Virus record (IMG/VR): IMGVR_UViG_3300044800_000009
Location: 1 to 20,009 of that record
Source: a virus
Strand: one strand, 5' to 3'
DNA: 20,009 bases
Made by a program: the position numbers and the translations under genes. The notes under the pieces were generated by a model, which saw only the letters and a program-made list of their open reading frames with translations, was not told where the DNA came from and did no database searches. Within the stretch, counting starts at the first letter, position 1. Each line of letters starts with the position of its first letter. Shown in pieces: positions 7,208 to 20,009 of this stretch.

Positions 7208-8158
7208 TTACAGCACGCCAGCAGCGGCGAGAATGCCAGCTAGGCGGCTTGCGCAGCGGGGATGTTCGATCTTGATGCCACAATCCCAATCGGAGCGAAA
7301 CCGCATGACGGGAGCGCTGGGGATCTCACCGAAGTCCTTGGCGCTCGGCATGGCGGTCTGGATTCCGCTCAGGAACTGGGGACCGAATTTAAGGGCATAC
7401 ATCGAAGAACACATCGCCGATGAAGTGCCAACAGTCTCATCCGCGGCCAAGATCACGTTGTCCTGGTTGTCGCGATCGATGATGGCGATTTCGATTCCCG
7501 AGAATGTCTGGGGCCGATAGCCGAAATAGTTCGGTTCGGCAAAGGCCCATAGGGTCGATCCCTTGAACAGATTTGACATCTGCCGGTGAGTGAACTTGCC
7601 CATGCAGATCATATCCGGGGGCCCGCCGTAGATGCTGTCGATGAGCCGCTGGACAGCATTCTCTGTCAGAGCCGCACCGGCCGTCCCGGAACCATCGACG
7701 TAAATGACGCGATGAGCATCCAGGTCCGTTCCCACGTCGGGAATGAGCCTCTTGTTCAATCCATCGAATTGAAGCGGATCGCTGGCTTCGTCGCCGTCGA
7801 AGAACATCTTGTCGAAGTACCGGGCCTGGGCCGTGATCTTGCCCTTAATGTCCAGGATTCTGCGGGCTTCTCCAAATCGGCGATAGAGAGCGATGTCGTA
7901 ATCGCACTCGCCGCCCAGGATCTTGACCTTCTCGACATGAGGAGTCAGGATACCAGAGCTCTGGGTATAGGTGCCGTTGACGGCACGGAAAGCGATCCCG
8001 GGCAACGTGGTTTCGACGTTGTAGGGATAGACGCCGCCCGGAGCGTCCTCGAAAGTGAGCCGACCCAAGATGGGCGAGCCCAGGGCGAAAATGCTGATGA
8101 CCCCTTTCGTTAGGTCATTTTCCGCGAGTTTCGCGGCTTCCACCAATGTCATACCCAT
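7208..8158 (-). CDS. Major capsid protein (HK97 fold expected)
   Basis: A 316-residue protein starting M-G-M-T-L-V-E-A-A-K-L-A, preceded by GAGAGGTAAACAAAC. The pattern is that of a large phage capsid family: an N-terminal helix with T-L-V-E-A-A-K, then L-P-G-I-A-F-R-A-V-N, an E-loop-like region, a long helix with K-I-T-A-Q-A-R-Y-F-D-K-M-F-F-D-G-D, the stretch F-D-G-L-N-K-R-L, and later F-S-G-I-E-I-A-I-I-D. The D-x-F-F-x-G-D then F-D-G-L-x-K-R motif is characteristic of this group. There is no large N-terminal delta domain, consistent with the separate scaffold gene just upstream. Scaffold, capsid and decoration protein are consecutive, the usual head order. Confidence 0.92.
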   Translation of the reverse strand: MGMTLVEAAKLAENDLTKGVISIFALGSPILGRLTFEDAPGGVYPYNVETTLPGIAFRAVNGTYTQSSGILTPHVEKVKILGGECDYDIALYRRFGEARRILDIKGKITAQARYFDKMFFDGDEASDPLQFDGLNKRLIPDVGTDLDAHRVIYVDGSGTAGAALTENAVQRLIDSIYGGPPDMICMGKFTHRQMSNLFKGSTLWAFAEPNYFGYRPQTFSGIEIAIIDRDNQDNVILAADETVGTSSAMCSSMYALKFGPQFLSGIQTAMPSAKDFGEIPSAPVMRFRSDWDCGIKIEHPRCASRLAGILAAAGVL

Positions 8159-8819: not shown

Positions 8820-8972
8820 TTATTTTCCTTTCTTAGGATTCTTTTCCCACTTCGCCGATCCCGGCTTGTGTGCGTTCATCGAAGCGTAGAAAACCTCCTC
8901 GGCTTTCGCTTTGCTGCCGTAGGTCTGCTTCATGTGAGCCATGACTTTGTTCCCACCCTTGCTTAATGGCAT
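8820..8972 (-). CDS. Small conserved phage protein (50 residues)
   Basis: I place the start at the ATG at 8972, which overlaps the preceding gene's stop as TGATG and has GGGAG six bases upstream; a longer frame from 9014 would overlap the upstream gene without a ribosome site. The protein begins M-P-L-S-K-G-G-N-K-V and continues with M-K-Q-T-Y-G-S-K-A-K-A-E-E-V-F-Y-A-S-M-N, a pattern I recognise as a recurring short phage protein (also found near head or lysis genes) in which a K-G helix is followed by K-A-E-x-V-F-Y-A. It is basic and probably forms one or two helices. Function is unknown. Its position between the gpG-like gene and the scaffold suggests late expression. Confidence 0.78.
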   Translation of the reverse strand: MPLSKGGNKVMAHMKQTYGSKAKAEEVFYASMNAHKPGSAKWEKNPKKGK

Positions 8973-9439
8973 CAGCGTCTCCCAATTATTTTCATCAGTG
9001 GATCGTCGAACCACTTTTTCACTAAGGTCAAAATGAAATTCTTGGTCACGTTCATAAACTCACGTTTCGGAGGACAGCCAGATTTGGGGCCCCCTTGATT
9101 ATGAAGTTGGGCTATTAACTCTTCATTCGTTACCCGGACTTCACCATGTTCATGCGAAAATGCCTTAGCCTGAATCGAATCCAGCATTGTCCCCGTCACC
9201 TTCAGATTTGGCCTTCCCGTCGCGGTCTGGCCCATCTTTTTCTTGCCATACTGTTCGCTATATGGCTCAAAACTCTTGCCTTGATAATCGAGGCCGAGCG
9301 CCGTATTCATGAGAATTTTTGTCTTCACGTCATCGCACATTCCCTGCATCGGCGCGGGATCGATAAGGACCGCCTGGATGTCTTCCAGCATTTTCAGCGC
9401 TTCGGGAACACCCTTGATAGTCACTCCTATTTCAGGCAT
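8972..9439 (-). CDS. Virion morphogenesis protein (Mu gpG / tail completion S family)
   Basis: A 155-residue protein starting at the ATG at 9439, overlapping the upstream stop as TAATG. It begins with a beta-alpha unit (I-G-V-T-I-K-G-V-P-E-A-L-K-M-L-E) and continues with F-E-P-Y-S-E-Q-Y-G-K-K-K, then P-N-L-K-V-T-G-T-M-L-D-S-I-Q, and G-G-P-K-S-G-C-P-P-K-R-E-F-M. The segment around S-F-x-P-L/Y-x-x-x-Y-x-x-K-K followed by L-x-x-T-G-x-x-L-x-S-I, and the P-P-R/K-x-F-hydrophobic motif near the end, are hallmarks of the phage virion morphogenesis family (Mu gpG, P2 gpS-like). Such proteins act at the neck or tail-completion stage. Its order after a gpF-like gene and before scaffold and capsid is Mu-like. 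Confidence 0.9.
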   Translation of the reverse strand: MPEIGVTIKGVPEALKMLEDIQAVLIDPAPMQGMCDDVKTKILMNTALGLDYQGKSFEPYSEQYGKKKMGQTATGRPNLKVTGTMLDSIQAKAFSHEHGEVRVTNEELIAQLHNQGGPKSGCPPKREFMNVTKNFILTLVKKWFDDPLMKIIGRR

Positions 9440-9912
9440 TAGATCCTCACGTCCCCGAGTTGGCTTCTGAATTCTGATAGTTGTCTTTTCATATACGCTT
9501 CAATTTCCTCAAATGGCATGTCGTAAATCTCGGGCGGGAGTTTTTGGTTCCCGAGGCTGTACCACTCCTCCATGAGCGTCTTCAAGCCGTCCTCGTTCGG
9601 TCCGATATCGATGATCTTGAGGATATCCGTCCCATCATCGCCGCGGAGTTTAACCTGATCTCCAATGGCCGGCAGATTGTCCATGACGCCGTCTGGAACA
9701 AGGATACAATGGCAACTATCGGTACAGACCCGGCCATCGGACCCGGGGAGGCCCCACTCTGAATCTTCCCACTCCGCATAGGTCATTGATTGTCCGTTAC
9801 ATTCAATGCAATCCGGGCAAGGATTATGAGAGAGGACGACATTGGTAAGGTTTCCCTCATAGTCGGCAAGGCTTTCGATGTCCTTGAATTCCGTGCCCGC
9901 TATGTCGGCCAT
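9439..9912 (-). CDS. Minor head protein fragment with Cys-rich zinc-ribbon-like region
   Basis: A 157-residue protein starting at the ATG at 9912, with AGGGG upstream. The C-rich segment has six cysteines: C32, C35, C38, then C63, C67 and C69, the last in T-D-S-C-H-C-I-L-V-P. The order C-x2-C, N-G-Q-S-M-T-Y, then C-H-C-I-L-V-P is typical of the C-terminal region of phage head-morphogenesis proteins (Mu gpF / SPP1 gp7 type), which end in H/N-C-x-C-x-hydrophobic-x-P. Here the long helical N-terminal half normally present (over 200 residues) is missing. The C-terminal tail (residues 110-157) is acidic and helical. It may be a stand-alone minor head protein or the remnant of a split gpF. The immediate next gene is the gpG-like protein, as in Mu. 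Confidence 0.72.
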   Translation of the reverse strand: MADIAGTEFKDIESLADYEGNLTNVVLSHNPCPDCIECNGQSMTYAEWEDSEWGLPGSDGRVCTDSCHCILVPDGVMDNLPAIGDQVKLRGDDGTDILKIIDIGPNEDGLKTLMEEWYSLGNQKLPPEIYDMPFEEIEAYMKRQLSEFRSQLGDVRI

Positions 9913-9920
9913 TTATGCCC

Positions 9921-10229
9921 CTATTTCGCGCCAGGATGACCCAGGACGGGCGATCTCTTCGCCCCGCTAGAAAATCGACCCAGGTATCCGGCCATGAACA
10001 CGCTGTTGATAAAACCGGAGACTTCGCGCTTTATGTCCTTCGTCAACTTGCCACGTTCCATATTCCAGGTCGATAGCTCCCGGTCTTTCTGCCCTTTCAT
10101 CGAAGCCGAGGTCATGCCCTTGATCTTGTTCTCAGCCACATACAGACGTCGCCGTTCCGAGAAATGCCGGATCAGCATGTCCAGTTTGATCCGGAGAAGT
10201 TCGGCGTGTGCGTTGCGGCCGTTTGTCAT
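9921..10229 (-). CDS. Small helical basic protein, possibly head-morphogenesis related
   Basis: A 102-residue protein. I choose the ATG at 10229, which has AAAGGG six bases upstream; a TTG six bases earlier is possible. It is Arg/Lys-rich and helical (E-L-L-R-I-K-L-D-M-L-I-R-H-F-S-E-R-R-R), with K-G-Q-K-D-R-E-L-S-T-W-N-M-E-R-G-K-L-T-K near the middle and a F-I-N-S-V-F-M-A-G-Y-L-G-R-F segment. The gene ends eight bases before the Cys-rich minor head gene. I do not recognise the family. It could supply part of the helical half missing from the neighbouring gpF-like fragment, but this is only suggested by adjacency. Confidence 0.68.
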   Translation of the reverse strand: MTNGRNAHAELLRIKLDMLIRHFSERRRLYVAENKIKGMTSASMKGQKDRELSTWNMERGKLTKDIKREVSGFINSVFMAGYLGRFSSGAKRSPVLGHPGAK

Positions 10230-10231
10230 GG

Positions 10232-10780
10232 TCAACCCTTTAGCAGTAATTCGACCTTGGCACTCCTGTCGATGACCAAGAGAACCAGGTTGTTGAACTT
10301 CCTCCCGCCCTCCTCCATGAATGGAAGGACGAACGGGGCAACCGCCCCGGTTGTTCCCTCGGCCTTTAGATAGAGTTCCGTTTGCGGAGTCCAGATCGAG
10401 AAATCGTATACCGAGCCCGTGTCGTTGGAAAGAGCGGCCCCCGTAATGATGATCGCATTATCGGAACTGCGCGTCGCCACAAGATACCAGCCGAGGTTAT
10501 TTCCGGTGGGACTTTTGGTGATACGGATGATATCGCCAACGGCGACCTTGCCCGTGGTGAATGCTCCGGAGCATGTGATCGTATTTGTTGACGTTACCGA
10601 AACAGTCCCGCCGGCCACGCTTGACTTTGGAGTCGCCCCCTCATTCCATGATCCAAGCGTCGCGGCATCGGCGGCTGCATTTGGGAAGAGAATTGCCTCC
10701 ACTAAGGCCAGCGGTCCCCCCTGAATCACTCCGATCGTGTCCAATAAGTAATAGCGTCCGTTATAGACTGAGTTTGACAT
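10232..10780 (-). CDS. Putative beta-rich structural protein of unknown family
   Basis: A 182-residue protein with AAGAGGTAAAAC before the ATG at 10780. After an N-terminal segment (M-S-N-S-V-Y-N-G-R-Y-Y-L-L-D) and an Ala-rich stretch, residues 55-130 alternate strands and turns (G-T-V-S-V-T-S, D-I-I-R-I-T-K, N-A-I-I-I-T-G), and the end reads N-N-L-V-L-L-V-I-D-R-S-A-K-V-E-L-L-L-K-G. This is the composition of phage virion surface or decoration proteins. It has no recognised signal peptide, unlike its upstream neighbour. Lying between the fibre-like gene and the minor head genes, it could be an accessory head protein or partner of the fibre. Function is not assigned. Confidence 0.68.
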   Translation of the reverse strand: MSNSVYNGRYYLLDTIGVIQGGPLALVEAILFPNAAADAATLGSWNEGATPKSSVAGGTVSVTSTNTITCSGAFTTGKVAVGDIIRITKSPTGNNLGWYLVATRSSDNAIIITGAALSNDTGSVYDFSIWTPQTELYLKAEGTTGAVAPFVLPFMEEGGRKFNNLVLLVIDRSAKVELLLKG

Positions 10781-10813: not shown

Positions 10814-13087
10814 TCAATATCTCTCAGTAATGAGATAGAATGTGGTTGATCCGGCCGTCAGATGATCACAAGTATCGACGGTCGTTGTAATTCGAACGGT
10901 GACGGCAATTGTTCCGGTCCAGTTCACCACGGCCCCACCCTGGATAGTGGCCGCATGGAGCAATTCCGTCCCCATGTCGGCATCGAGCAAACCCTTTGTG
11001 ATCACGCTGGACAGGACATCATGGACAGCGAGATATTCAGCACCGCCGCTTCCCTTGCCAACCATGAGCGTCGCCGCTGCTACGGTTCCTCCAGTATAAG
11101 GGACGGTTGTATCCGCGTACATCGCGATGAGTTTCGTTTTTGCCGGTAGGGTAGCGATGACCTTGTCTGCCGTCAAGTCCGCGACGGAATAGCCCGCAAA
11201 TGTGACCGTGACTTTATAAACCTGATGAACCGCGTTACCCGCGCTGTTCACGGTCAATCCGGCCCCGCTTCCTGGGGTGATCTGGGATCCCGTGGACTTG
11301 ATCCCGACAAACGAAGGTGTGTCTGAAGTAGTGAGTCCGGCGACGGCGGCTTGATTAAGAGTGGCCCATGACGGAATCGCGCCCGTCGCGCCCGCGAGAT
11401 ACTCGCCCGTCGCGCCAACCGCGGCCAACTCGGTGATCGTATTAGCGGCCGAATAGACGGGAAGTTTATAAATCGTCCCGGCGTTTGGAAGGATGAGCGT
11501 TGAGGAAATCCAATTCGTTCCGTCGGCCCGAAGATATGCGCCGGTCGTTGTCGCCGTGGCAGGGTAAGTTGCCGTTGTCCACGCCGGAACAAATGGGGTA
11601 GCGCCAACGCGAAGGATCTGGCCTTCGGCCCCGATCGCCGTCACGCCAACGGGGGAAGCGGCATTTCCGTAAAGAATCCCATTCAAGGCAAATGTCGCGG
11701 CTCCCGTCCCGCCATAAGTGATTCCAAGAACATTCGCCGTTCCGGGGATAGTGTAATTCGCCGTGAGAGATAGGGCTCGTGTCGACGTGGTGTATGTGAG
11801 CCCCGTAGGAACCGAGGAGAGGATATCGGCCGAGGTCCAATTTGTCCCGTCTCCGATCAGGGCGTTACCCGCCGTCGCCGTTACGGAAAAAGTCGGCGTA
11901 GAGAATGATGGGGCAGATGCACCCTGACTCATCAGGACTTGATACTGCGTCCCGCCGCCCGGAATCATGTAGCCCGCCGTGAGACTAAAAACTCCGGTTG
12001 TATTGGTATAGGTCAAACCCGTTGCCGAGGATGAAAACGCCGTTAGCCCCGCAGCCGGACCCCACGATAATACTGCAGATCCATTTGTGGTTAATGCCTG
12101 ACCTGATGTCCCATCCGTCAACGGCAGCGTGTAGGTTTTGCTTGCGCTTGCCGCCCCCGCCTGGATTGAAGTGTCATAGGCACCCGTCCCTTTTAGAGTG
12201 AGCAAGGACAAGGACGAAGATCCAACTGCCGACGTAGCAGACATGAGCGGGATATAGGTCAATGTTCCATTGAGGTTGACCTTAATCCATCCCGCCGTAG
12301 CGAAACCGGACGCGGAATCGACTGCCTTATGAGTCCCGGCGTTGGCGTCGAAACGGAATACCGTCGCATTCGGCACCGCCGCACCATAAGTCAGAGTGAT
12401 GTCGTTTATGTCAATATAGTTATGCCGAGTGATTGTTCGCGCCGTCACCGTCGAAACCGTGATCTTGCAGCCGGTACCGAACCCTCCAGTCGTTATGAGT
12501 CCGGCCGTGGGAGTATATCCGAGTCCTCCGGCCGAAACTGTAACTGCCGTAACTGGGCCAGTTCCCCCTCCTCCACTAATCGAGGCAACCGTCACCGTTC
12601 CACCCGTCCCACTAGCCACGGCCAGAACATCGTTGACCTTGTAGCCTGTCCCAGCCGTGTGAACGACAACGGTTGCGATTATACCGTCCCCGACATAAAG
12701 CGGGGTTAGACGAAACGCGCCAGCATAACCTTCGGTTGCGCTGGCCGTTAATGCCTGCGCATAATATCCCCGAACAAGTTGGCCTGTGAAAGTCGGTGCC
12801 TTCGTTTCAACTGAAAACGAGAACACGCCGGCCGAAGTCATCGTCAGCAATCCGCTGATGCCCGGTTCAGAGTAGAGCTTCAGACCATTGCCGTTAGATG
12901 TTCCGGGGCCGAACGACTCGATAACACCATCGGTCCTGAAATTTCCGTTTGATAGCCAGTATTGGTTTGTGGCGTATCGAACCTCTCCCAAGGCCAAGGA
13001 GAATCCGGAGGAGAGGTTATCCCGGGCCGCCATGCCAAGGCCAGCCAAAGCCAAGATGAGAACAAGACCAATCAATTTCTTTTTCAT
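10814..13087 (-). CDS. Fibre-like protein with N-terminal signal peptide
   Basis: A 757-residue protein. The start at 13087 is favoured because GGAGG lies ten bases upstream and because the ATG overlaps the upstream stop as ATGA; a longer frame to 13177 is rejected. Residues 1-22 form a classic Sec signal: K-K-K, a hydrophobic core L-I-G-L-V-L-I-L-A-L-A-G-L-G, then M-A-A-R. Residues about 145-215 hold Gly/Thr repeats (T-A-G-T-G-Y-K-V-N-D-V-L). Two similar units, at about 357-377 and 429-449 (G-L-T-Y-T, then S-L-T-A-x-Y-x-I-P-G), and a Y-G-G-T-G-A-A-T stretch at 458 are typical of phage tail-fibre shafts. Residues 620-757 form a C-terminal domain (L-P-A-K-T-K-L-I-A-M-Y-A-D-T, then L-T-A-G-S-T-T-F-Y-L-I-T-E) common in phage structural proteins. 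Gene position inside the head operon, after the portal, is unusual. Confidence 0.82.
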   Translation of the reverse strand: MKKKLIGLVLILALAGLGMAARDNLSSGFSLALGEVRYATNQYWLSNGNFRTDGVIESFGPGTSNGNGLKLYSEPGISGLLTMTSAGVFSFSVETKAPTFTGQLVRGYYAQALTASATEGYAGAFRLTPLYVGDGIIATVVVHTAGTGYKVNDVLAVASGTGGTVTVASISGGGGTGPVTAVTVSAGGLGYTPTAGLITTGGFGTGCKITVSTVTARTITRHNYIDINDITLTYGAAVPNATVFRFDANAGTHKAVDSASGFATAGWIKVNLNGTLTYIPLMSATSAVGSSSLSLLTLKGTGAYDTSIQAGAASASKTYTLPLTDGTSGQALTTNGSAVLSWGPAAGLTAFSSSATGLTYTNTTGVFSLTAGYMIPGGGTQYQVLMSQGASAPSFSTPTFSVTATAGNALIGDGTNWTSADILSSVPTGLTYTTSTRALSLTANYTIPGTANVLGITYGGTGAATFALNGILYGNAASPVGVTAIGAEGQILRVGATPFVPAWTTATYPATATTTGAYLRADGTNWISSTLILPNAGTIYKLPVYSAANTITELAAVGATGEYLAGATGAIPSWATLNQAAVAGLTTSDTPSFVGIKSTGSQITPGSGAGLTVNSAGNAVHQVYKVTVTFAGYSVADLTADKVIATLPAKTKLIAMYADTTVPYTGGTVAAATLMVGKGSGGAEYLAVHDVLSSVITKGLLDADMGTELLHAATIQGGAVVNWTGTIAVTVRITTTVDTCDHLTAGSTTFYLITERY

Positions 13088-13302
13088 TTTTGTAAAACCT
13101 CCGCAACCAATTTCTTGCCCTCTGCCGCCGCTTTGACGGCCTCCGGGGTTATGTATTTCGTCATTTTGTCGATCCATTGTTTGCGATAAGATCCCGAGTT
13201 CGCTTTCGATTCATCGAACGCGAGCATTGCGACTCCGGCCTTATCAGATGCCTGATTCTCTAGGATCTGAACGCGCCGGATGCTCTCGCGAAGTTTAGCC
13301 AT
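13084..13302 (-). CDS. Small helical protein after portal
   Basis: A 72-residue protein that starts at the ATG at 13302, overlapping the portal stop as TAATG, and ends in an ATGA overlap with the fibre-like gene, so both junctions look translationally coupled. It is basic and mostly helical: a first helix L-R-E-S-I-R-R-V-Q-I-L-E-N-Q-A, then a linker, and a C-terminal helix P-E-A-V-K-A-A-A-E-G-K-K-L-V-A-E-V-L. I do not recognise the family. Small proteins directly downstream of the portal are frequently head-assembly or connector accessories, but this cannot be shown here. Confidence 0.75.
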   Translation of the reverse strand: MAKLRESIRRVQILENQASDKAGVAMLAFDESKANSGSYRKQWIDKMTKYITPEAVKAAAEGKKLVAEVLQK

Positions 13303-14882
13303 TATGCCAGACTCCTAGAAACGTCTCCCATCTGGGCCGCCGATGTCGGTTTCCCTACTGCCCCACCCTGATCCGGTTGCTGCCCGCCAGCCCCGGGCTC
13401 CCCAGATGCACCCCCAGCCATTCCTGTTCCGCCTTCCTTAAAGATTTCATTCAGCGCCTTGTCTAGGTCCGGAGATTGTTCGCGCATTTTCCCCAATTTG
13501 GTCAGATTATCGATGATGGCTTTCTCGGCATCCTTCTCATCTTCCACGTCGGGGTTGAAATGCTGATAGAACTTTCCGAGGCTGATTATGCCCCCCTGGA
13601 GTTTACGTGTCTCTAGGTCAATCTCCACGGCCGGGTCTTCCGGGAAATCAATCTCGCCAAAGTCAACGGTAAACTCGGCGTCCCAAGGAATAATTTCCCA
13701 ATCCAGTCTGTCACCCTTTTCATCCGTCCCACCGGCCAGGTTGTTATTGACTGCCCGCGTCTTCTCAAACAGCTCCTTCTCATATCGATGATAGAGCGGG
13801 AGTTGATCCTCGCGGGCCTCCAGGAGAGCACGATTTCTGATCTTCAGCGCCCGACCCGATACTTCCGATATCTTCATGCTCCAGGCATCTGCGCTGATGC
13901 CATAGTTATTGATGACGCCGTTGATCTGATAGGTTTGTGCCTGGACTAATTCAGCCATCCGGTTCTGAAGATCCAGTGTTCCAATCTGGGCACTCCCATG
14001 CGGTCCATGCTGGGCAATCAGCACCGCCGAAGGATCGGACAACTGGTTTGACGGAATCTTCACGTCATCGCCGATCAAATAAATCTGCTTATGGCTGGCG
14101 TTCTTGAAATAATAGTCTAGGAGCGTGTTCTTCATGTGCAGCGCAATCGCCGCGCTGATTAAATCTCTCCCAGAATCCATGTCCAGAAAAACGTCGATCG
14201 GCTCGGTCTTATGGAAGAAAACAAAGGGCAGAAACGGCGTTCCGTCCTCATACTTATAGGGCGTATCCTCTGCCGTGTAGATCATGCCCTGGGTATTCCA
14301 GTTGTAATCTAAAAGCTCTACGGAGCCATCTTCGTAGTAATAGTGATAGGCCATTTTAGGCAGATTGTCTTTGTCGTAAACAATGGTCTGAAACCAAACT
14401 GAAATCGGCCATGTCGGATCGTGTTCGTCAACGATGACGCCGCAGACGTTGGGCGTGATGAGGTCATACATAATCTCGCCACGCCGAACGCTGATCTTTA
14501 AGGCGGTCTCGTTCATCAGCGTCGTATATCGATTCACGGACTTCATTTTCGTCGGATAATCGAGAGAATCCTTCAGCTCATCATATCGCGGAGACGGTTT
14601 GTCCAATGTCCGTTTGGCTTCGGCCTTGTAGACCATCGAGACTTCGTTGACCACACGCTTTAGGACGTTTTGACTGCCGTTAATGTAAAAACGAATCCGG
14701 TCATAAAGCTCCGGGCAATACACGGCCTTCAGTGCATCCTCAACTGGACCCTGATAGTTATCTTGGTACAGGTCCAGCCGGAGTTCCATTTCGTTCCGGC
14801 GTTGAAGATCGGCACGCCATCTCTTTTCCAGGACGCGCCTGGCGACGATGGTAGAGGCCCAGGGTTTGAAGAGGTTAATCAT
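13302..14882 (-). CDS. Portal protein (SPP1 gp6-like)
   Basis: A 526-residue protein. The ATG at 14882 overlaps the terminase stop as TAATG and is preceded by GGAGG; an in-frame TTG at 14897 lies five codons upstream but overlaps the ribosome site. The N-terminal half contains L-R-L-D-L-Y-Q-D-N-Y-Q-G and R-I-R-F-Y-I-N-G-S-Q-N-V-L-K-R-V-V-N-E-V-S-M-V-Y, the pattern of SPP1 Gp6-type portals. Later segments (V-F-F-H-K-T-E-P-I, D-L-I-S-A-A-I-A-L-H-M-K-N-T) continue this family. The C-terminal 60 residues are Gly/Gln/Pro-rich and probably disordered. Portals form a dodecameric ring at one capsid vertex and serve as the DNA-packaging channel. Length is normal (480-530) and context, directly after the large terminase, is standard. 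Confidence 0.93.
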   Translation of the reverse strand: MINLFKPWASTIVARRVLEKRWRADLQRRNEMELRLDLYQDNYQGPVEDALKAVYCPELYDRIRFYINGSQNVLKRVVNEVSMVYKAEAKRTLDKPSPRYDELKDSLDYPTKMKSVNRYTTLMNETALKISVRRGEIMYDLITPNVCGVIVDEHDPTWPISVWFQTIVYDKDNLPKMAYHYYYEDGSVELLDYNWNTQGMIYTAEDTPYKYEDGTPFLPFVFFHKTEPIDVFLDMDSGRDLISAAIALHMKNTLLDYYFKNASHKQIYLIGDDVKIPSNQLSDPSAVLIAQHGPHGSAQIGTLDLQNRMAELVQAQTYQINGVINNYGISADAWSMKISEVSGRALKIRNRALLEAREDQLPLYHRYEKELFEKTRAVNNNLAGGTDEKGDRLDWEIIPWDAEFTVDFGEIDFPEDPAVEIDLETRKLQGGIISLGKFYQHFNPDVEDEKDAEKAIIDNLTKLGKMREQSPDLDKALNEIFKEGGTGMAGGASGEPGAGGQQPDQGGAVGKPTSAAQMGDVSRSLA

Positions 14883-16186
14883 TACATGGCCCTCCAAACG
14901 CTGGGGCTGACGGGGAATCGATTAGCGAAGAAATAGCGGAGCGCGTCACACCAATGGTCTGAGATTCCGTCTTTCAACGGGTCCTCGCTTTTAATGTCAC
15001 CCTTCGGATCGGGATAGCGATACATTTCTAGGGCCTGAATCAAGTTGACGCACTTCGTAGAAATGAAGAGCTTATTATTCCGCATCCATTTACGGATGAT
15101 ATCAAGACCGTCCTGGATAACACCCTTGTAATTGCGCATATAGATTATTTTTGTTCCATTAAGGGCAACCTTCAATTCGACGACGCTGGATGTTCCCACG
15201 GCCTCGTTTTTCGAGTCTCCGGCGGGGTCGCAATAGATGATCTGCGGAGCCCGTGCCTTCCCGGCAATATCAATCGGAACGCGGGCTAGGATTTCCTTTG
15301 CCGTCTTTGCAATCGGCGTTTCTACGGCCCGGATTTCATCGAATATATAGACGTTTTCGACGGCGTCGATATTGATGAGCAGGCACGCCGTAGGAGCTGA
15401 CCATCCGAAGTCCATGCCAACACAATATTCAGCGTTGGGCATGAATGACAGAGTTTTTGGGGCGTGCTTTGTGCGGTCAAAATCCGCGAAGACGCGGCCC
15501 CCGAAGGTCTCGAAACTGGCCTCGAATTCCTGCCTAAACACGCGCGGGTCCATGTCGCGCCTGGCTCTCTCTATTTCCGCTTGCGGGATAGTCCCGGCGT
15601 CGGATGTTTTTATGGATTTAAAATACCATTCATCAGGATATTTCAGGGACATTTCCCGGATACGATGCAAATTGTGATAGCCCTTCGGAGTCCCGATGAA
15701 CATAACCGGGGCCTGATAGTCAGCCGTCCTTGGGGCCAGCACTTCTTCCCAGAGTTCCCATTTCTCGATATCGAATTCATCGAGAACTAGACGCCGCAAT
15801 TTCACTCCGCGCAGAGAGTCGGGATTGTCACCGCCCTTGAGCTGAATCCATTGACCGCCAACAAACTCAATGGACATATCGCCTTCGTAAATTCGTTTAA
15901 CCAACCCATGAGCCTGGAGCGGGCGAATATTCATCTTGAGTTTGCCCCAAGCGATATCTTCCGCCGCCGTGTAAGTCGGACCGACATACCAGCTCATGGC
16001 ATCGCCCAAGCGCATATCATCGGCCGGGGCCGACGTGACAAGCCAGTCTACAGCAAGGGTAGTTTTTCCCGATCGTCCTCCGGCTGCGATGCCCTTGAAT
16101 CGTTGCGGAGCGGCCTTAACTTCGATCTGCCACGGTTTGAGTTCATATGGAAGAACGATGTCCCGATATTCGGTTGCGGCGTTCAT
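14882..16186 (-). CDS. terL: Terminase large subunit (ATPase/nuclease)
   Basis: A 434-residue protein starting at the ATG at 16186 in an ATGA overlap with the small subunit gene. The ATPase has a Walker A at G36-G-R-S-G-K-T42 (Lys41), a Walker B at L-V-L-D136-E137 and a coupling-type F-I-G-T-P-K-G at 163-169. The nuclease half contains G-M-D259-F-G, Y-C-D320-P-A-G-D and D410-H-W-C-D414-A-L-R-Y, acidic residues of the RNase H-like terminase nuclease. All key residues appear intact. The enzyme translocates DNA into the procapsid through the portal and cuts the concatemer. Length is typical for the compact terminases (420-450). The next gene is the portal, as expected. Confidence 0.96.
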   Translation of the reverse strand: MNAATEYRDIVLPYELKPWQIEVKAAPQRFKGIAAGGRSGKTTLAVDWLVTSAPADDMRLGDAMSWYVGPTYTAAEDIAWGKLKMNIRPLQAHGLVKRIYEGDMSIEFVGGQWIQLKGGDNPDSLRGVKLRRLVLDEFDIEKWELWEEVLAPRTADYQAPVMFIGTPKGYHNLHRIREMSLKYPDEWYFKSIKTSDAGTIPQAEIERARRDMDPRVFRQEFEASFETFGGRVFADFDRTKHAPKTLSFMPNAEYCVGMDFGWSAPTACLLINIDAVENVYIFDEIRAVETPIAKTAKEILARVPIDIAGKARAPQIIYCDPAGDSKNEAVGTSSVVELKVALNGTKIIYMRNYKGVIQDGLDIIRKWMRNNKLFISTKCVNLIQALEMYRYPDPKGDIKSEDPLKDGISDHWCDALRYFFANRFPVSPSVWRAM

Positions 16187-19028: not shown

Positions 19029-20009
19029 CTATTTGGATTTGTTCGCCGGATCGTCCGGCGGGATTGACGATATTTTTTCGCCCCACCTATCGCACTCGTA
19101 CAGGACTCGCCCTTTCCGAAATGCGATCTTATGGGGATACGACGGATTCGGCCAGGCATATGTATCGACCAGGGCTATTGAAATAGCGATATATTTATCA
19201 TCCCGCTCCGATCGGAATTCATCGCAGAAATAGGGTCTGGAGCAAGCGTGATATTTCCCTTCGCCGCACTCAGAATCCTTTGGAGACCATGCGGGATGAG
19301 CGATTGTCTTCCCTATTTTCCAGGTCGTTTCGTTCGGCGTTTTTTCTTGAGTTTTGAAATCTAGGGACACGCGCTTAAAAAGGACAATCGTTTTTCTCTC
19401 TTCGATTCCATTGGCCCCAAACCAATCTTCGATATTCTCGCATTTTTGGATATGTGCATTTTTTGTCTTTGAGATTTCCCCCTTAAACAGAAAGGGGATG
19501 GAAATAACCGCATATCCGAACAGTTTTATTTTGGCCCTACAATTTACGCCTATTGGGTAAGCCTGGATGCTGCTCGATTCCCAGGCCTCGATATGCGGGC
19601 TGCTCGATCCCCGGGTCTCGATGCGCGGGCTGCTCGATTCCCGGGCCACGATGCGCGGGCTGCTCGATTCCCAGGCCACGATGTGCGGGCTGCTCGATCC
19701 CCGGGCCTCGATGTGCAGGCTGCTCGATCCCCGGGCCACGATGTGCGGGCTGCTCGATTCCCGGGCCTCGATGCGCGGTCTGCTCGATTCCCAGGCCACG
19801 ATGTGCGGGCTGCTCGATCCCAGGGCCACGATGTGCGGGCTGCTCGATTCCCGGGCCACGATGCGCGGGCTGCTCGATTCCCAGGCCACGATGTGCGGGC
19901 TGCTCGATTCCCAGGCCTCGATGCGCGGGCTGCTCGATTCCCAGGCCTCGATGTGCGGGCTGCTCGATCCCCGGGCCTCGATGCGCGGGCTGCTCGATCC
20001 CCGGGCCTC
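19029..20009 (-). CDS. 10-residue tandem-repeat protein with Cys/Trp-containing C-terminal domain (5' end outside window)
   Basis: The frame is open from the right window edge to the TAG at 19029, 326 codons visible; an internal GTG at 19889 is merely a repeat codon, so the true start is outside. Residues from the edge to about 19571 are repeats of I-(E/V)-A-(W/R)-(E/G)-S-S-S-P-(H/R). Short-period repeats with Ile and Ala at fixed positions suggest a beta-solenoid. The C-terminal ~180 residues contain W-K-I-G-K-T, G-K-Y-H-A-C-S-R-P-Y-F-C, P-N-P-S-Y-P-H-K-I-A-F-R-K-G and V-L-Y-E-C-D-R, resembling a domain of uncharacterised phage proteins that pair similar repeats with a small domain. No enzymatic motif is evident. 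The non-repeat part is more A+T-rich than the repeats. Function unknown. Confidence 0.78.
   Translation of the reverse strand, partial: EARGSSSPRIEARGSSSPHIEAWESSSPRIEAWESSSPHIVAWESSSPRIVARESSSPHIVALGSSSPHIVAWESSRPRIEARESSSPHIVARGSSSLHIEARGSSSPHIVAWESSSPRIVARESSSPRIETRGSSSPHIEAWESSSIQAYPIGVNCRAKIKLFGYAVISIPFLFKGEISKTKNAHIQKCENIEDWFGANGIEERKTIVLFKRVSLDFKTQEKTPNETTWKIGKTIAHPAWSPKDSECGEGKYHACSRPYFCDEFRSERDDKYIAISIALVDTYAWPNPSYPHKIAFRKGRVLYECDRWGEKISSIPPDDPANKSK
19571..20009 (-). repeat. 30-bp in-frame tandem repeat array
   Basis: The sequence tgctcgat recurs every 30 bases at 19571, 19601 and so on to 19991, giving 14 complete units and one cut by the window edge. The period is ten codons, so the frame is maintained. 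Units differ mainly by single bases at four codons, changing E/V, W/R, E/G and H/R, with a few rarer changes (L for W/R at 19811, L for P at 19691, T for A at 19601). There are no unique spacers. The array probably continues past the edge. Confidence 0.95.

Follow-up and report, generated by a model that had tools for sequence, protein, structure and literature searches.

A predicted Sec signal on a fibre-like protein in the head operon of a siphovirus-type phage and its recurrence in unrelated phages

In this study, we describe a phage protein of 757 residues (P0001) that joins a predicted Sec-type signal peptide to a fibre-like body and is encoded in the head operon of a complete viral contig of 20,009 bases (the window, i.e., the whole stretch of DNA that was analyzed). 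Sequence comparisons identify P0001 and the adjacent gene p182 as an accessory cassette inserted at the junction of two conserved genes, p72 and p104, and indicate that a signal on a fibre-like protein is not a one-off: such predicted signals recur in structural and packaging modules of unrelated phages. Judged from these features, P0001 is probably exported.

The late region of the window is of the siphovirus type and reads from the minus strand. Its genes run in the order amidase, Rz-like gene, small genes, TerS, TerL, portal, p72 and P0001; then p182, p104, a gpF-like gene, a neck/tail-completion gene, the scaffold and the major capsid protein (MCP); and then the tail genes, the tape measure and an F5/8-type protein, the contig end being reached before the usual tail-fibre region. 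The features that matter here are:

10814..13087, minus strand: P0001, signal-bearing fibre-like protein, 757 aa (open reading frame with GGAGG and an ATGA-coupled start)
13028..13087, minus strand: predicted Sec-type signal peptide MKKKLIGLVLILALAGLGMA, residues 1-20 of P0001 (rule score 35.4 and chance controls)
11981..12160, minus strand: fibre linker element TYTLPLTDGTSGQALTTNGSAVLSW, residues ~310-369 of P0001 (phmmer, tblastn)
10232..10780, minus strand: p182, 182 aa, partner of P0001 in the inserted cassette, without a signal (open reading frame)
13084..13302, minus strand: p72, 72 aa, conserved small gene after the portal (45% identity to L170:9087-9299)
9921..10235, minus strand: p104, conserved gene (47% identity to L170:9311-9562)
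9439..9912, minus strand: gpF-like gene, 157 aa (62% identity to L170:9567-9986)
8972..9439, minus strand: tail completion/neck protein (phrog_26, E 5e-6)
13302..14897, minus strand: portal protein (45-47% identity to L090, L170, L171 and L172)
14882..16186, minus strand: terminase large subunit (TerL)
7208..8158, minus strand: major capsid protein (phrog_212, E 2e-45)

The reading frame of P0001 and its place between the portal and gpF-like genes, rather than with the tail genes, agree with the original prediction, the latter within a gene order that relatives conserve. The portal gene sits where portals lie in MCP-related loci, and p72 has a further weak match in L090. The 157-aa gene is called gpF-like from its Cys-rich motif and has no Pfam match, while the tail completion/neck protein also matches Pfam Phage_tail_S below the cut-off. 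At the far end of the window (19569-20009), a 30-bp tandem repeat (14.7 copies, 90% match), open in several frames, continues off the contig.

P0001 likely begins with the ATG at 13087, because a GGAGG site lies 10 nt upstream and because the codon overlaps the stop of p72 as ATGA, which would couple the translation of the two genes. The protein thus begins with MKKKLIGLVLILALAGLGMA, followed by ARDN, an N-terminus of the Sec/signal-peptidase-I type with a predicted cut after A20: it has a KKK n-region, a 17-residue hydrophobic stretch of mean hydropathy 2.58 and a G-M-A/A cleavage site (MKKK-LIGLVLILALAGLGMA/A). To score such signals, we used a conservative rule of our own (not SignalP) that requires a net positive n-region, an uncharged hydrophobic core and a small-x-small site, the score being core length multiplied by mean hydropathy. 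The value of 35.4 for P0001 is well above chance: random proteins of the window's composition scored 24 or more in 72 of 20,000 cases (0.36%), shuffled versions of its own first 60 residues reached 35 in 6 of 20,000, and only 7 of 3,271 surveyed phage genes reached 35. Of the 23 window genes scored, only P0001 passes when read from its listed start. The Rz-like gene passes solely from an internal start, and the segment there is likely a membrane anchor. Hence, by sequence criteria, the Sec signal that had been read at this N-terminus holds. No lipobox is present in P0001, which has no Cys near the cut and Cys only at 207 and 740, and we accordingly rejected the idea of a lipoprotein. In a scan for sigma-70 promoters and for terminators, no intergenic pair around P0001 was stronger than chance.

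The fibre nature of P0001 rests on one linker element (~310-369) and on a low-charge, Gly/Ser/Thr/Ala-rich composition. The linker also occurs in phage proteins of fibre-like character (phmmer E 5e-6 to 2e-3 among the ORFs of retrieved loci), including those of L251 (E 5e-6), L244 (E 6e-6) and S-CRES1 gp86 (E 7e-4), the last of which is also matched by tblastn; two phage proteins reached through weak, non-significant tblastn matches to the linker are tail-fibre proteins by PHROGs. Both linker, of the form (Y)TLP..DG..GQ.LTTNG..LSW, and composition are shared with HTVC026P gp55 and S-CRES1 gp86; these, however, have ordinary cytoplasmic N-termini in place of the Sec signal of P0001. Two further claims of the original prediction, that P0001 has repeats resembling a shaft and ends in a domain typical of phage fibres, found no counterpart: apart from the linker, nothing in P0001 matched fibre-like proteins, the protein had no match in Pfam, PHROGs or the PDB, and no relatives were found in viral contigs, genomes or phage records at E 1e-3. 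The C-terminus used alone as query likewise returned nothing from viral contigs, genomes, phages, Pfam, PHROGs or the PDB, and its single-sequence model was unusable (pLDDT 42), as was that of p182 (pLDDT 40). Where a virion-anchoring N-terminal domain would be expected, P0001 has the predicted signal, followed by a region without relatives.

Near relatives came from a TerL scan with two queries (window and L090), which picked out L170 (66%), L171 (58%), and L172 and L090 (57% each). The same two-sequence query found nothing in genome contigs, and other scans based on MCP and TerL yielded distant phages in which no relative was present. The gene order of the window is conserved in the near relatives, and in L170, L171 and L172 equivalents of P0001 and p182 are absent between portal/p72 and p104, a pattern that fits the definition of a moron as an accessory gene missing from relatives at the same place. 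In L170, p72 and p104 abut with a GTGA overlap, which places the P0001-p182 cassette of the window exactly at a stop/start junction; the sequences thus identify the pair as an accessory insertion. A BLAST comparison, run without a positive control, found no relative of P0001 in the records of L170, L171, L172 and L090. The GC content of P0001 (0.561 versus 0.538) is not foreign, and on this basis we rejected a recent foreign origin. The suggestion that P0001 is a chimera of a secreted host protein and fibre parts therefore fares unevenly: the insertion relative to L170, L171 and L172, and the signals that precede homologous fibre bodies in L192 and L239, speak for it, whereas the GC content and the failure to find a secreted host parent in genome collections speak against it.

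The head operon of L170 has another accessory slot between its neck and scaffold genes, occupied by P0003 (L170:11546-12955), an appendage-like protein of 469 aa without a signal. In the L170 phage, the tail-fibre-like gene is directly followed by that of a 447-aa protein with a lipobox-like start (LLFAAC; L193:9471-10814), which has no Pfam or PHROG match.

Beyond the window, our candidate set of signal-bearing fibre-like proteins comprises L170, L084, L190, L192 and L239. In L170, the 266-aa P0002 is encoded before TerS and starts with MKKYLAALFIVAFAVLAFG/QVTGKYLGFTPDRYWDNNGVLCTDG, its first mature residues being faintly like those of P0001 (E 0.011). In L084, an MCP relative, P0005 (MKRAMILLAVILALGAVAFG/A) lies between MCP and head-tail adaptor. 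In L190, a distant phage, TerL is followed by a portal-like gene, a 113-aa gene and two consecutive signal-bearing proteins (L190:9646-10603), the first of 148 aa, the second fibre-like and truncated where the contig stops, so that the pair occupies the same slot as P0001 in the window. L192 encodes the 633-aa P0004 upstream of its packaging genes. L239 has two such genes (L239:2774-11675): that of P0011 comes immediately behind the tail-tip gene, and that of P0012 lies farther along. All three proteins bear signals. Behind these, P0004 and P0011 have bodies with homologues among phage proteins that lack a signal (E 5e-15 for P0004, 2e-13 for P0011). Clear ribosome sites directly precede the signal's ATG in L170, in L190 (twice) and at L239:5171. 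As side observations, the long TerL ORF of L190 seems to contain an intein-like insert, and two small ORFs of L239 also appear to start with signals.

Such signals are rare on fibre-like proteins. A scan for the linker motif yielded at least 120 contigs and at least 121 ORFs with a candidate start, and a credible signal was found in 1 of the 121 listed (L239); two further hits, in L268 and L299, were discarded as low-score false positives. In a survey of 2,332 genes from 317 loci, a credible signal was present in 7 of 338 fibre-like genes as against 20 of 1,994 others, rates that are rough because the loci had been chosen by other criteria and only the matches listed were counted. Where the N-terminus was hydrophobic, a small-x-small cleavage site was found in all eight fibre-like genes versus 23 of 30 other genes.

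Genes for fibre-like proteins are a known kind, as are genes for exported accessory proteins. The lambda morons Lom and Bor are exported accessory proteins of the late/tail region with their own promoter and terminator. P0001 as we read it resembles them in export and in its late location, but for P0001 neither element stood above chance. Among exclusion proteins, T5 Llp blocks the receptor FhuA (PMC9586334) and Rtp45 blocks LptDE (PMC12685063); both are phage-encoded and sent out of the cytoplasm, as we propose for P0001, with receptor blocking as the suggested analogy. They are, however, small lipoproteins, a type marked by a lipobox Cys at +1, in contrast to a fibre-like protein of 757 aa that has no lipobox and is encoded in a head operon. 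The paired small proteins of cyanomyoviruses, typified by L201:2629-3126, whose relatives occur in 147 marine phage records, nearly all of cyanophages, are likewise phage proteins rich in beta structure, and the relatives examined retain their Sec-type signal; at L201:2629-4273 signal-bearing proteins are consecutive, and a second small gene follows in several of those relatives. We rejected them as members of the same class because their sequences are unrelated to P0001 and, in the records examined, they lie outside the structural module and run against most or all of the neighboring genes.

Briefly, we infer the following for the expression, cleavage, export, location and function of P0001. 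The cassette, having been inserted into the late head operon, would be translated together with the structural genes; the N-terminal signal would direct P0001 to the Sec translocon and be cut off after residue 20; and the mature protein would act at the envelope of the host or in the extracellular space, rather than being built into virions in the cytoplasm. We give even weight to this reading, in which P0001 is a fibre-like accessory protein made late, exported through Sec and active at the host envelope. It is favored by: (i) a signal well above chance; (ii) a start backed by a ribosome site and ATGA coupling; (iii) the uniform presence of the cleavage site behind fibre-like hydrophobic N-termini; (iv) the ribosome sites before the signals of L170, L190 and L239; (v) the recurrence of signal-bearing proteins in five other phages; (vi) the lack of the cassette in L170, L171 and L172; and (vii) the precedent of Llp and Rtp45 as exported receptor blockers. 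Within it, our guess by analogy is that mature P0001 would most likely be an adhesin which, late in infection or on debris, occupies the receptor of the phage itself or masks it. The export reading is weakened by the size of P0001 and its lack of a lipobox relative to known exclusion proteins, and by a signal call that depends on a home-made rule applied to a protein without close relatives.

The main rival holds that P0001 is a virion fibre, such as a head or neck appendage, that is never exported, its hydrophobic N-terminus serving in attachment or trimerization or being clipped during assembly. This is the less probable account, albeit one with some weight, and several observations that count against export count in its favor: P0001 lies between portal and neck genes in a coupled operon without an above-chance promoter or terminator, like a virion gene; S-CRES1 gp86, which shares the linker and has no signal, is encoded just before the scaffold and capsid genes; L170 has the different, appendage-like P0003 between its neck and scaffold genes; and the signal-bearing gene of L239 comes right behind the tail-tip gene, where virion tail fibres are usually encoded. 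However, the KKK n-region, 17-residue core and GMA/A site are features of a Sec substrate, and 120 of the 121 linker-motif ORFs listed have no such N-terminus, so fibres can do without one. A secretory route to the virion, in which exported P0001 meets particles only outside the cytoplasm, binding them at or after lysis or aiding release, would account for signals combined with structural-operon locations in several phages, but no precedent was found in the open-access literature and we deem it improbable. We are equally skeptical that the gene of a secreted host protein was once captured and that the signal is a relic of it that does not serve export in the phage: the cassette insertion, and the L192 and L239 signals before bodies homologous to signal-less fibres, fit such a history, whereas well-formed signals with ribosome sites in at least five other phages, a GC content typical of the window and the lack of a host parent do not.

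In the open-access literature that we searched, we came across exclusion lipoproteins; of fibre proteins that carry a signal and recur in the structural modules of unrelated phages, we found none described. As a tentative generalization, which we regard as rather unlikely, many environmental phages might carry secretory fibres, i.e., fibre-like proteins of structural operons that are Sec-exported either to occupy receptors and shield progeny against re-adsorption, or to attach to particles outside the cytoplasm. Routine annotation takes fibre-like phage genes to encode receptor-binding proteins of the virion, and host-range prediction makes use of them; if a recurrent subset is indeed exported, that annotation would be wrong for the subset, and exported fibre-like proteins would represent a new route by which phages control receptors or engage the surface of the host.
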